From assembly GCF_000787575.1 (NCBI RefSeq), contig NW_012236522.1:868001-932000 (forward strand): a DNA stretch of 64,000 nt, given 5' to 3'. The stretch comes from Acytostelium subglobosum LB1 (Eukaryota; Evosea; Eumycetozoa; Acytosteliales; Acytosteliaceae). Position numbers and translations under genes: made by a program. Below the pieces are notes generated by a model. The model was not told where the DNA came from, made no database searches, and saw only the letters and a program-made list of their open reading frames with translations. Below, piece by piece: positions 1,053 to 7,663 of this stretch; position 1 is the stretch's first letter, and the number at the start of each line of letters is the position of its first letter.

Positions 1053-2102
1053 ATTAATGTGTATATATATCTACAAGTAGTAATAGTAGCAATAGTTTAA
1101 ACAATAAAATGAATGAACAAACGATCTTAATATCTGTCCGATCCTCAGTCCGATCGTGCAAGACCGATAAATTTCCAACTATCCTGGAAAAACATGAGAA
1201 TTGAGTAAAGAAACAAGTTGGACAAAAGCAAACTCAAGTGTAAATGAATGATATAATGACCAATAATAATGGTTGGACAAATGAAGAACAAATATTGATT
1301 GATTGATTGATTGATGGATGTCGATTGTTCATTGAACAGACAGGGAGGATCGTGATCTTATTTAATTGACACTTATCTGTGTCATTGTTACAACAATTCA
1401 ATTGGTCCAAGTCACTCCACATCCACTATCACCACAACCAGTACACACATTCTTATAAGTGTTTGATTGATTGTTTGATTGAGTGTGTAGTAGAAGTATA
1501 AATAGACCCTATGAGGTCCACACAAGTGGTGAACAATCAATCAGTGTGTTGGAATGTGTTTGACAATGTGAATTGATTGACCACTACCACTACACACTTT
1601 CCATCATCATCGTGATGAGGAGGATGGAATATATAACATGTTATAACACCTATATCAGAAACCACCTCTTTGATCGACACCCCCCTCACTACTACTGTAC
1701 ATGGTTGTTTAAACAACATCAATCTTAAATGACAATGCCACCAAGTCGATGAGGGGTAGTGAGTGCATTCAAGGCTGGATGGAACACCCACAGAACAACA
1801 GAGTGCCAACCATTAAGGTGTTAATCAATGAGGGCATAATCCAAATAACCTTATTAACCAACCCAGCCATCTTGGCAACGGACACTTGTGTACTGTGGGC
1901 AAAGTTGATTGATTTGCCTTCCTTCCCTCCCTCCTTTATTCCTTCCATCTCCTTACTCCTCCTTTCATACCCCAATCATTATTATTATTGTTATAATTAT
2001 TATACTAACTAGACCAAGAATAAGGAAGCAGTTAACTTGGTTTTATTCTATAATTATAACTATCTTTAAAATATTTATTATTTTTATTATTAATTATTAA
2101 TA
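1053..2102. other. Intergenic region, shared upstream region of two divergent genes
   Basis: No convincing gene. It contains a (GATT)n tetramer run near 1294-1316, purine/pyrimidine simple sequence near 1918-1975, and a very AT-rich stretch (about 1975-2102) directly before the fibro-slime gene that probably holds its core promoter. The RNA ligase gene starts at the left edge on the other strand, so promoters for both genes should be here. Confidence 0.6.
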
Positions 2103-4343
2103 ATGACATTCAGGATTAACCTGGCTACAACACTGATAGTCCTAGTGTTGGCCTTGACTATCTCGGCAATATATGGACAAGATGGTAAGTACTAATATAT
2201 ATATATATATCTTGATCATATATCTTGATCACTCACCCACTCACTCAATCAATCAAAATTTTAAAGATACAATTGTTATGAAGGTATCAATATTTGATCA
2301 ACATCCATCAAAGAATTTAAACTTTGAGAGTTGTAGTAAAGGTCTACAAGAGAATATGGTCACCTACAAGCTAGACCAATCACAAATTCCAAGATTGAGT
2401 CCACCTTTGGGAGATAATGCCTGTATTTTGGACTTTCAAGCATTTAAATCATTCTTCCAACCAAATGCCACCGTGAACAAGTTCTCCACATATGAGATCA
2501 GTCTACATAGGAATGATTCCAGTGGTGGCTACACCTATAACAACCAGGAGTTCTTCCCCATTGATAACCAGGGCTGGGACACCGATCCCAACCTCAAGCG
2601 ATATACCAACGAGAAGGGTGTCTACCATAACTTCCACTTCTGCATGAAGTTCAGCACATACTTCACCTACGCTGGCAATGAGAGATTCTCATTCACCGGT
2701 GATGATGATGTATGGGTATACATCAACAACAAGCTTGCTGTAGACCTTGGTGGAGTACATTCTGCCGAGAGCAAGACCATCGTATTGAAGAATGTTATGC
2801 CAGATCTTCAAAGGGTATGTTCATTCAAACCCTCTACCCTTGCCCTCTACCGTTATCCTAACCCTTGCCCTCGACCCTCAACACTCAGACTCAAACATAT
2901 CCTTTCGACTTCTTCTATTGTGAGAGACATACAAATGCCTCGACTATATACTTTGATACCAACATTGATGTAAAGTGCAAGTTCTATGATTACTGTGATA
3001 CGTGCAATGGTGATGGATCAAACTGTTGTCAAGGTAGCACCGATTGTGATGACAAAGACCCATGCACGATTGACAAGTGTCCATCGGCATTGACACCAGG
3101 CATCAACAAGGACAACTACAAGACCTTCTGTCAACACACCCGTATGAACTGCTCGATCACCAATGATATGTGTAACACCTACACATGCCAAGCCGGAGAT
3201 GCTTGTGGACTAAAGACACCGGTCAAGTGCCCAGAGCAACACTGCAAGGTACCATCGTGTGACCCCGTCAAGGGCTGTCAATCATTCAACAAGTGCACCT
3301 CCTCTGTCTGCACAGACTCTGTCTGTCAGCCTGGCGCTACAGTGGCCGACGACAAATGCATTGAGACACCAAAGAACTGCACTGGACCAGACTTATGTCT
3401 TGTCTACTCTTGTGATGCCAGCAAGGGCGGCTGTATCTCCAAGTCCAAGGTATGCACTCCACCCGACGAGTGTACTTCATCTACATGTGTCAACGGCCAA
3501 TGCGTCAACACTCAGATCCCCGTCGATCAGTGTGCAGCCTGCAAGCCCAAGCCATGCTTTGTCAACCAGTGGCTCAACAGCAACTGTGTCTACTCCAACG
3601 ATCCAAAGATTGACGACAGCAACCCATGTACTACTGACTTGTGTAACAGCACAACAGGCGAGATCAGCCACGTCCCAGTCTCTTGTGATGGATGCCAGGC
3701 CTGCCAACAATCTACTGGCACCTGTGCCGACGACACCACCAAGTGCCAGGACGACGGCAACCTCTGCACAACCAGCCAGTGCACATCTGGCAACTGTACC
3801 TACACGATGATCTCCTGTGACGACGGCAATCCCTGCACTGACGACTCATGTGACCCAGTCACTGGTTGCGTACACAAGGACACCTTGTGTCCAGACGAAG
3901 GCAACTGCCAGGAGGGATACTGCCAGGCGGGTGTTGGATGTGCCCTGAGGACTCGCAACTGCACCACCGACCAGTTCTGCATCGACTCTATCTGTGACGA
4001 GCGTCTGGGCTGCGTCAAGTTTGAGAAGCGCTGCATTGCCAACAACCCCGACTGCCAGATTGGCACTTGCAACAATGTGACTCAGGCATGTGAGTTCCGC
4101 GACTACTCGCCACTGCCATTCGGCTGCAACAAGGCCGCAGTCATCTCCACTGGAGTTATTGCCGGTGTAGTTGTGGCTGGTGCTGTTGCCCTAGGACTGA
4201 TGATCTTTGGTGGCAAGAAGGGCTACGACTACTGGAAGCAGAACAAAGACAACAAGATGTCAGCGTCCAACAGCAATCCAATGTACACTCCCAGTCCCAA
4301 CAATGCCGAGAACCCACTCTACGATCCTGCCGCCAACAACTAA
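2103..4343 (+). CDS. Fibro-slime (PA14) domain, cysteine-repeat type I membrane protein, psi family
   Basis: Three exons: 2103..2184, 2267..2814, 2889..4343 (694 aa). The ATG at 2103 gives a signal peptide (about residues 1-25, ending SAIYGQ). Residues about 40-235 form the fibro-slime/PA14 domain: FTGDDDVWVYINNKLAVDLGG is the calcium-loop core and YPFDFFYCERH lies just after the second splice. About 240-620 is a long run of 12-25-residue Cys repeats of the Dictyostelium CTDC type (DGNPCTDDSCDPVTGC). A single transmembrane helix (about 626-650) is followed by a 45-residue cytosolic tail with two NPxY-like NPMY/NPLY motifs. Members of the prespore-cell-inducing-factor (psi) family have this plan; the exact paralogue cannot be named. 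Expected role: cell surface or matrix adhesion or signalling in development. Confidence 0.88.
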
Positions 4344-4605
4344 AGCTATCTTCATAAGTGAGTGTTTGGGTGATTGATTATCCACCAATCTCCAATCAAT
4401 CAATCAAACTCATAAGATGTTGTATATATATATAATACCTTAACAATATAAATTAAACTTCCGAATCATATAAATATAATCATTTTGGTGATTGACAAGT
4501 GGAAATTGCCAAAGTATACCGAGGTGAAGTAGTTAATATTTATTTACAAGATCAAAGGATGATCATTTTTAAGGGCTATACCAACTTAGTAATGTTTAAT
4601 TAAAG
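4344..4605. other. AT-rich 3' flank between convergent genes
   Basis: Noncoding 3' flank of the psi-family gene and of the small Cys-rich gene on the other strand. It has an AATCAATCAATC run near 4390-4407 and a TATATATATA tract near 4424-4434. Nothing else is seen. Confidence 0.5.
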
Positions 4606-4797
4606 CTATCTGAATCTATGGCTCCTAAAGACCTCACACTGAGTGCATCTGCATCCTCTTCCAAAGTCACCACATGGAGCTATTCTTCCAGAGAATCCAC
4701 CAAAACCATTATGCATCCTCCTGGCATCGTTACATTGATCACAACGGCAGCCCCTTCCAAAGTCCTTACAGGGGATACCCAAAAGTCCAAGAGTCAT
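4606..4797 (-). CDS. Small cysteine-rich protein with a duplicated CxDFGRGCRCxQC motif
   Basis: Single-exon 63-aa reading frame, ATG at 4797. The motif C-x-D-F-G-R-G-C-R-C-x-Q-C occurs twice (residues about 10-22 and 42-54), separated by a Gly/Arg/His linker. The two DNA copies differ at several codons, and within the core nearly all differences are synonymous (AGG/AGA, GGC/GGA, CGT/AGA, TGT/TGC, CAA/CAG), which is what selection on the peptide leaves. No signal peptide or membrane helix is visible, so a cytosolic or nuclear protein is likely. Four Cys per motif could bind zinc or another metal or form disulfides; this is inference. I do not recognise the family. The gene sits alone between AT-rich flanks, with its promoter presumably in 4798-4950. 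Confidence 0.6.
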   Translation of the reverse strand: MTLGLLGIPCKDFGRGCRCDQCNDARRMHNGFGGFSGRIAPCGDFGRGCRCTQCEVFRSHRFR

Positions 4798-5608
4798 CTT
4801 TGATTATTAATTACTACTAGTAGTCTTTAGAAAATTAGAAATATTGAATAATTATTATTAATATTATTATTATTAATAGAAAGGTAATTTATGAGATATG
4901 GAAGATAAGGATATAAATTGGTTCTTAAATATTAAGATATAATAATGTTTTTGATGATATTAAATAATGTCCAAGATGATCACTTATTTATAGTTTTTAT
5001 CTTGATTGGAGTTGTAATAGAGATAATCAATTCTAAAAGAATAGGAATCAATCAAGTTCCCAATCCTGGTAATTTTCAAAACCAAAGTGTAAAAGAGAGT
5101 TTGCTATCTACAAAAATAGTAATGTATGAGGTGATTGGAATCCAAAAGACATGCACCAAATCACTTCAAACTTAGTGTCAACCAAGTGTCTGATAGACAG
5201 ATTGGTGTGGTGATTGCTTGGGCCTCTGGGACCACCCTTTCTCCCACTTCTGGGATTTTTGAGAAGTCAGTGTCTCTTCAATCCTTTCAAACGAACTTGT
5301 AAATTGATGTTCATCTTCTAGGGTTTACCCTGGGATAAAGTTATATCAACTTATTATTATTATTATTATATCATTCATAATATATTATTCATAATTGGGA
5401 TTGAAATTTTTGCCTCACTTCATTCAACCTTCAAAGCATCAAACTGATTCATTTTTGAATCCAAAAATAAATAAATAAACTCAACTTGAAACTTTGCATG
5501 ATCCCACCCTAAATGAATCATTGAGTGGGCTAGTTCAGACCTTGGTCAAACATTCACTACTTTGTCGATCACTCATTAATACAACTACATCTATATAGAT
5601 ACATTATA
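4798..5608. other. Intergenic region, AT-rich
   Basis: AT-rich at both ends (TTATTATTA runs near 4848-4877 and 5350-5372), with a less AT-rich patch at about 5175-5335 that has no clear reading frame. Reading frames inside (for example 4945-5175) have no family signature and AT-driven composition. It presumably holds the promoters of the Cys-rich gene (leftward) and of the coiled-coil gene (rightward). Confidence 0.5.
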
Positions 5609-7663
5609 ATGTCAGCAACAGGTGCCCCATCACAAGAGTTTGTCAGACTCAATAATATCCTCGTGGACACTTATGTTAAACATCAGGATGAGATCAAGAA
5701 GCTAACGGCATCAATCGATCACATTACAAAGGAGAAACAGTTGTTGACGAGGAAGTATGACTCGTTGTTAAAGTCATCCCAGGATGCTGGTCTGACACTG
5801 CCCGAGCCCGAGCCAACTCCAGTCGACGAGGAAGTGGTCGAGGAGCAGACGCCAGTGTCGCAGCCACCCACCGCCACCTCCACCACCAACAACAGTAGCA
5901 GCAGTACCGACCCCGCTGATGCCCAAGAGATCGCCGCTGTACTCGACACACTCAAGAAGGAGTTGAAGGAGCGTGATGCCGCACTGGCTGACGCCAACAA
6001 CAAGTTGGCCATCTCCACTCATGAGATTGATCGTTTGAACTATGACATCAAGAAGATTCAGGAGCAGCAGCAACAGGGCAGTGACAACACGGACACCAAC
6101 AATGAGATTATTGCCTCGCTCAAACTTAAGGAGGAGCAGTTGGTGCAGCAGAACCAAGGTCTACAGGCTGCCCTGGACGAGCAGAACCAGCTATCACTCA
6201 AACTGCGCGAGCAGTTTGTTGGCGAACGCGATACTCTCAACAAGAAGTTGGAGGCCTTCCAGTCAGAGGCGTCAAAGTCCGATCTGCTGCACCAGGAGCT
6301 GGAGTTGCTTCACGCACGCATCGAGGAGAAGGAGGAGGAGATAAAGAAACTGGGCCAGACGATCGCCGATCTCGAGACTGAGTGTCGCGAGCTCCAAGAC
6401 AGGATCCAACAGAACACCAGTGGCTTCAAGGACAAACTGGACGAGCTGCAGCAGTCCAAGCAAGAGGAGCTGCAACAGCTCACACAGCAACTCAATGAGT
6501 TGCAGTTGGCCAACAAGGACCTGGCTGACAAGGCTTCCCAGGGCGAGGGTCAAGGCGAGCAGGTCTCCAGCTTGCAGGAACAGGTCACTCAGCTGCAGAG
6601 CGAAAACAAGCAGTTGTCGACCAAGATCGACGAGGCTGTGCAGGCTGCCGCACAAGAGCAGGCCGCGTTGGTCACTGGCCTCCAGGAGCAGGTCACTCAG
6701 CTACAAAACGAGAACAAGCAGTTGTCGACCAAGGTCGATGAGTCTGTCCAGGCTGCCGCGCAGGAGCAGAGTAAGCTTGGCGAGTTGGAGCATGGAAAAA
6801 GCGAGCTCGAGGCAAGACTGGCCACATTGGAACAAGAGAACAGCGAGCTTAAGCAACAAGCTAGCCAAAGTGGACAGCAGCAGACCGATGCGTTGCAGCA
6901 GTTGGAGCAGACAAACAATGCACTGGTGGCCAAGCTGGCCGAACAGGGTGGCGAGCAGGTTGCCAAGCTGCAGGAGCTCCAGACCCTGGTGGAAACGGCC
7001 ACCAAGACTGAGGCTGAGCTGCAGGCTAATATCGTCGCGCTCAATGAGGACAACAACAAGCTGCGCGAGCAATCGGATTTCTTGCTCGAAGAGAACAAGT
7101 CGCGTGGCGATGGCATTGCCAAGCTGGAGCAGGACAACAAGGCACTACAGGACAAGTTGAGCGCGCTACAGGGTGCTGAGGGCCAACAACAGGCCGTCGT
7201 TGCCAACCTCAATAATCAAGTGAGCCAACTGATGGCCCAGTTGAACGAACAGGATGGTGTCAGGACACGCCAGACTGAAGAGCTGGCCAAGATTGAAGAG
7301 GAGAAGGATCATCAACTGCAGCTCGTTGCCAAGCTGCAGGAGAAGCTGAAGGAGTTGCTCGAGAAGCAGGAGCTCCACGAGAAGGAGTCGCAAGACAAGA
7401 TCACCGCGCTCAAGTCTGAGAATTCATCATTGCAAGCGACCGTCACAAAGCTCGAGTCAGAGCAACAGCAGGCTCAAAATAGCCACGAGGATGTCAAGCA
7501 CAGCGAAAGCGAGACCATCATCGCGACCAACACTGAGGTCAATGAAGTGGAACAACCCCAAGAGAGCAAGACAGAGACAACCACCAACGAGGAACAGGCA
7601 GGCGAGCAGCCAGCCGAGTCTGAGGAAGTGGCCACGTTGGAGGAGGACGAACAGACATTTTAG
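5609..7663 (+). CDS. Long coiled-coil protein
   Basis: Single exon, 684 aa, ATG at 5609 after ACATTATA. A short N-terminal segment (1-60) is followed by a Pro/Thr/Ser/Asn linker (about 68-105). Residues about 105-640 are almost pure heptad coiled coil rich in Gln, Glu, Leu and Lys, and an acidic tail ends the protein. A roughly 35-residue block containing LQEQVTQLQ, ENKQLSTK and VQAAAQEQ is tandemly duplicated (nt about 6574-6660 and 6679-6768). There is no membrane segment, GRIP domain or motor domain. The composition resembles golgins, tropomyosin-like or centrosomal scaffolds, but coiled coils alone do not allow a functional assignment. The strong GC-rich third-position bias suggests high expression. 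Confidence 0.9.
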   Translation: MSATGAPSQEFVRLNNILVDTYVKHQDEIKKLTASIDHITKEKQLLTRKYDSLLKSSQDAGLTLPEPEPTPVDEEVVEEQTPVSQPPTATSTTNNSSSSTDPADAQEIAAVLDTLKKELKERDAALADANNKLAISTHEIDRLNYDIKKIQEQQQQGSDNTDTNNEIIASLKLKEEQLVQQNQGLQAALDEQNQLSLKLREQFVGERDTLNKKLEAFQSEASKSDLLHQELELLHARIEEKEEEIKKLGQTIADLETECRELQDRIQQNTSGFKDKLDELQQSKQEELQQLTQQLNELQLANKDLADKASQGEGQGEQVSSLQEQVTQLQSENKQLSTKIDEAVQAAAQEQAALVTGLQEQVTQLQNENKQLSTKVDESVQAAAQEQSKLGELEHGKSELEARLATLEQENSELKQQASQSGQQQTDALQQLEQTNNALVAKLAEQGGEQVAKLQELQTLVETATKTEAELQANIVALNEDNNKLREQSDFLLEENKSRGDGIAKLEQDNKALQDKLSALQGAEGQQQAVVANLNNQVSQLMAQLNEQDGVRTRQTEELAKIEEEKDHQLQLVAKLQEKLKELLEKQELHEKESQDKITALKSENSSLQATVTKLESEQQQAQNSHEDVKHSESETIIATNTEVNEVEQPQESKTETTTNEEQAGEQPAESEEVATLEEDEQTF

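Follow-up and report, generated by a model that had tools for sequence, protein, structure and literature searches.

A 63-residue reading frame with two four-cysteine motif copies in Acytostelium subglobosum, a candidate small metal-binding protein

The reading frame and its surroundings

The window, which is the whole 64,000-nucleotide stretch analyzed here, has a G+C content of 0.46 and comes from an assembly of 30.73 Mb in 56 contigs. A minus-strand frame of 63 codons (Table 1) lies within a gap of 1.27 kb, between the end of one plus-strand ORF at 4343 and the start of another at 5609. The neighbor on the left (2865–4343, plus strand) is a Dicty_CTDC-repeat gene. Its 492-aa Cys-rich frame contains three Dicty_CTDC stretches (Pfam) and, on visual inspection, a hydrophobic segment close to the C terminus that is followed by a short tail. 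Judged by these features, its product looks like a membrane-anchored extracellular protein.

Table 1. Coordinates of the 63-aa ORF and associated features (positions in the window)
Feature	Position	Strand	Basis
63-aa ORF, including stop	4606..4797	-	ORF listing; G+C island
Repeat copy 1 (N-terminal), PCKDFGRGCRCDQC	4732..4773	-	Repeat comparison
Repeat copy 2 (C-terminal), PCGDFGRGCRCTQC	4636..4677	-	Repeat comparison
TATAAA[A/T] box-like match	4986..4992	-	195 bases upstream of ATG; consensus match only
AATAAA poly(A)-signal-like hexamer	4539..4544	-	61 bases past stop; consensus match only

The frame is preceded by an in-frame stop three codons 5′ of the ATG, and inspection revealed no upstream exon. 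Both observations count against a longer spliced gene. In addition to the elements in Table 1, a second hexamer, ATTAAA, is found 5 bases past the stop, again as a consensus match. Protein and DNA searches of the same genome, in which only the best candidates were scored, found this locus alone, and a gene family or transposon was rejected. A genome search with the repeat likewise returned just the two repeats of the 63-aa ORF. The gene apparently consists of one exon and is present in a single copy. The search of the genome with the DUF2769 profile did not return the 63-aa ORF and hence provides no test for paralogues.

The frame stands out from its surroundings by base composition. Its G+C content is 0.469, whereas the flanking 150-base stretches have 0.167 (upstream) and 0.287 (downstream). 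The G+C-richest of the 1073 stretches of 192 bases within 4344–5608 starts at 4604, two bases off the end of the frame. An earlier note on this DNA had read the frame as coding, which agrees with a G+C island that coincides with the frame to within two bases at its ends. A structured RNA was also considered and rejected: an Rfam search over 4344–5608 gave one sub-threshold match (5017–5047), outside the ORF. The RNA of the ORF itself is not unusually structured (z 0.65).

The same gap contains a second G+C-richer island at 5130–5330, which reaches 0.52 per 60 bases. It has no minus-strand ORF of at least 40 aa, its RNA shows no unusual structure on the minus strand (z -1.30), and a DNA search with 4950–5350 matched nothing but itself in the genome. 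At position 5204, the island features GGTGTGG, a G-box-like site. The island could serve the gene at 5609 as a promoter region.

The duplicated motif and the evidence for coding

The 63-aa protein carries CKDFGRGCRCDQC and CGDFGRGCRCTQC, spaced 32 codons apart. Both 13-residue motifs fit CxDFGRGCRCxQC exactly, as the earlier note had described. The spacing of the four cysteines (Cys-10, Cys-17, Cys-19, and Cys-22 in unit 1; Cys-42, Cys-49, Cys-51, and Cys-54 in unit 2) is identical in both copies, and the aspartate, the FGRG stretch, the arginine, and the glutamine are likewise kept.

At the DNA level, the 14 paired codons of the core differ at 12 of 42 bases, with six codons changed silently, two replaced, and six identical. 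The codon pairs singled out in the note (CGT/AGA, GGC/GGA, and TGT/TGC) are all present. Its statement that almost every difference is silent is too strong. Of the differing codons of the 13-residue motif, 5 of 7 are silent (6 of 8 when the preceding proline is added); counted by bases, 7 of the 12 differences fall in silent codons, and the two replaced codons account for the other 5. The differences are distributed over codon positions 1, 2, and 3 as 3, 2, and 7 in the 14-codon core. Nei–Gojobori analysis of these 14 codons yields a pS of 0.78, which is saturated, and a pN of 0.17. Over 31 paired codons, 54 of 93 bases differ, and the relationship of the copies is thus confined to the core.

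We compared the core with a null model that scatters 12 changes randomly over 42 bases, with the target that 12 of 14 residues stay identical without a stop. In two runs, the target was attained in the ORF's own frame in 1 of 100,000 and 0 of 60,000 trials, and in any of the six frames in 9 of 60,000 trials; these figures are uncorrected both for the choice by eye of this one pair from the repeats across 64 kb and for a 14-codon core that was delimited after inspection of the repeat. The remaining five frames over the repeat keep just 3–7 of 13–14 residues. The null trials support the proposal of the note that selection has acted at the protein level since the duplication. An internally duplicated frame provides its own test of selection without a second species, and this is the source of the credibility of this ORF.

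The opposing view is that of a chance ORF, in which a short noncoding duplication looks synonymous by accident. The similarity is limited to 42 bases, and small frames are common, as 149 frames of 35–99 aa occur outside the ORFs used for training the codon-usage model. Codon usage is also not coding-like. With a model trained on 17 long ORFs of the window, the 63-aa ORF scores -9.2 bits (-0.146 per codon), which places it 86th among the 149 small frames and lower than every one of the 17 training ORFs (minimum -0.08). A plus-strand frame that covers these bases reaches -2.4, versus -15.9 for the ORF with its stop counted. Codon usage therefore speaks against coding. It is weak evidence, because it rests on 63 codons and an unusual amino acid composition. 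Set against these points, the null trials and a G+C island matching the ends of the frame render a chance ORF quite improbable, and we consider the frame very probably a genuine tiny gene. Such genes are easily overlooked or left nameless. The published A. subglobosum gene set comprises 12722 proteins and is restricted to those over 50 aa (PMC4334915), a limit for which the 63-aa ORF is long enough.

A putative two-site metal protein and its alternatives

We see about an even chance that the locus is a real single-copy gene for a small intracellular protein with two tandem Cys4 metal-holding units, a reading in which we infer expression, fold, metal binding, and role. Each unit (C-x6-C-x-C-x2-C) would consist of a hairpin-like turn, with three cysteines located in the turn or next to it, and a helix that starts just before the fourth. 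Through its four thiolates, each unit would most likely hold a single ion, of zinc or a different soft metal. Metal binding by the 63-aa protein is plausible. Such a small zinc protein would have a structural or adaptor role, not an enzymatic one. Nothing in the analysis speaks for a redox role. An evident signal peptide is absent by inspection, and the protein is probably intracellular.

A single-sequence AlphaFold2 prediction gave a weak model with a mean pLDDT of 59.9 and a pTM of 0.40 (pLDDT range over the five models, 37.3–59.9). In this model, unit 1 comprises strands 11–13 and 16–18 followed by helix 20–32, whereas in unit 2 short bridges replace the hairpin ahead of helix 52–61. The fourth cysteine of each unit (Cys-22 and Cys-54) is placed just inside the modeled helix. 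A hairpin followed by a helix is a common build of small zinc knuckles. Foldseek returned no PDB fold match for the model, and the search of PDB sequences gave no convincing match (best E = 0.26).

The protein fits no family recognized in the searches, in line with the view expressed in the note: neither Pfam nor NCBIfam gave a match above cut-off, and no PHROGs match was convincing. Three matches were attributed to chance by their scores: NCBIfam LvhB7 (E = 0.0066; 16.1 bits versus a cut-off of 70), a PHROG HNH family (E = 0.09), and NCBIfam primosomal N′ (E = 6.1). A peptide-pattern search, which reaches close relatives only, of prokaryote genome contigs and viral contigs found no relative at E ≤ 1e-3; 225, 18, and 9 stretches matched the pattern, and none was confirmed. 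With tblastn, phages gave no match and plasmids gave four records, all with E values of 5 to 10. Since the searched collections (prokaryote, viral, phage, and plasmid) hold no dictyostelids, absence from them says little about relatives. In the portions of the Dictyostelium, dictyostelid, and Acytostelium literature accessible to our search, no protein with the CxDFGRGCRCxQC motif was met.

The cysteines could also hold metal only loosely, to store or detoxify it, without two folded sites, as in a metallothionein-like buffer. The CxCxxC clusters and the small size of the protein are consistent with such a role. Against it argue the low cysteine content (8 Cys in 63 residues, 13%), the two identical spacings, and the presence of 6 Phe. 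Classical metallothioneins contain roughly 20–30% Cys. There was, moreover, no metallothionein model among the Pfam and NCBIfam matches up to E = 10, in a search whose HMMER filters drop most weak matches. This result counts little, because metallothioneins are too variable in primary structure for easy recognition, as stated in a review (PMC3777012). The same review mentions that D. discoideum has one gene, DDB_G0288281, annotated as a putative metallothionein, which favors a buffer, but also that Dictyostelium cells tested negative for metallothionein in a chemical assay, and it leaves the identity of DDB_G0288281 open (PMC3777012). On balance, we regard a metallothionein-like buffer as unlikely. 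A disulfide-bonded secreted peptide appears very unlikely: paired four-cysteine units could in principle form disulfides equally as well as metal sites, but just MTLGLLGIP precedes the first cysteine, in which a signal peptide is not evident by inspection.

A protein with two tandem metal-holding units would be a modest find; small Cys-rich orphans are a common kind of protein. Should it have orthologues, it would offer a compact two-site metal protein for study. It would then also bear on whether dictyostelids have metallothioneins, a question left open in the review (PMC3777012).

Comparison with known small cysteine-rich proteins

Metallothioneins in general resemble the 63-aa protein in that they are small, lack a catalytic domain, and feature C-x-C-x2-C clusters. 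The annotation of DDB_G0288281 would likewise imply a small Cys-rich protein, in another dictyostelid. The C-x-C-x2-C motif is also contained in the CXC/tesmin (TCR) DNA-binding domain, which was absent among the Pfam matches of the 63-aa protein up to E = 10.

The one Pfam match up to this E value is DUF2769 (PF10967), to which residues 17–62 align on profile positions 1–50 (E = 0.014) with 16.4 bits, below the gathering cut-off of 22.8 bits for membership. In archaea, DUF2769 is found above cut-off in 4 of 5 Methanosarcina genomes and, across the phylum, in 100 of 294 genomes; the family name was not found in the papers searched. We built an archaeal model of 31 domains from 30 loci of the 294-genome search and one further locus (L023). 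Both units of the 63-aa protein align to the second half of this model, with 7.5 and 14.0 bits and a total of 15.8 bits.

It is highly improbable that the protein is a distant eukaryotic relative of these small archaeal proteins rich in cysteine, whether through shared ancestry or through transfer. Some observations do point in this direction. None of 2000 free shuffles reached the total of 15.8 bits, none of 10 shuffles with fixed cysteines matched DUF2769 in Pfam, and some archaeal members read C-x-D-L ... C-x-C-x2-C-E-V-W. On the other hand, the Pfam score is below cut-off, and 57 of 2000 Cys-fixed shuffles scored at least 15.8 bits (best, 23.6). A frame judged to be chance (L002) outscores the 63-aa protein in the same genome, with 17.6 bits in Pfam's DUF2769 model. 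Furthermore, all 31 DUF2769 domains open with CxCxxCP and close with a further cysteine, whereas the 63-aa protein has neither: it reads CRCDQCN at the motif, and its last cysteine is the fourth of unit 2. Because some Cys-fixed shuffles and the L002 frame score at least as high, and because CxCxxCP and the closing cysteine are missing, the resemblance appears to be mainly one of cysteine layout.

The L002 frame (1432–1593, plus strand) comprises 53 aa and ends in CPCLQCRVFQTFRHR, similar to the end of the 63-aa protein. It was the single place returned when the genome was searched with the DUF2769 profile (E = 0.192), was rejected as a DUF2769 relative, and lies opposite a 501-aa ORF, which is kelch-like by eye only.

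A broader reading, which we hold to be very doubtful, places the protein in a dictyostelid family that has no name yet, made up of minimal zinc knuckles in tandem (two C-x6-C-x-C-x2-C units per 63 residues) and remotely related to the DUF2769 proteins found in methanogenic archaea and their relatives. Selection would have preserved the motif in this family while synonymous sites became saturated.

The hosts differ, as DUF2769 proteins come from archaea and the 63-aa protein from a eukaryote. Both share a further cysteine between two CxCxxC motifs, which are spaced 30–54 residues apart in the 31 archaeal domains (mostly 35–36) and 32 in the 63-aa protein. Given these paired motifs, DUF2769 may be useful as a lead, by analogy, to how the small protein of A. 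subglobosum works.
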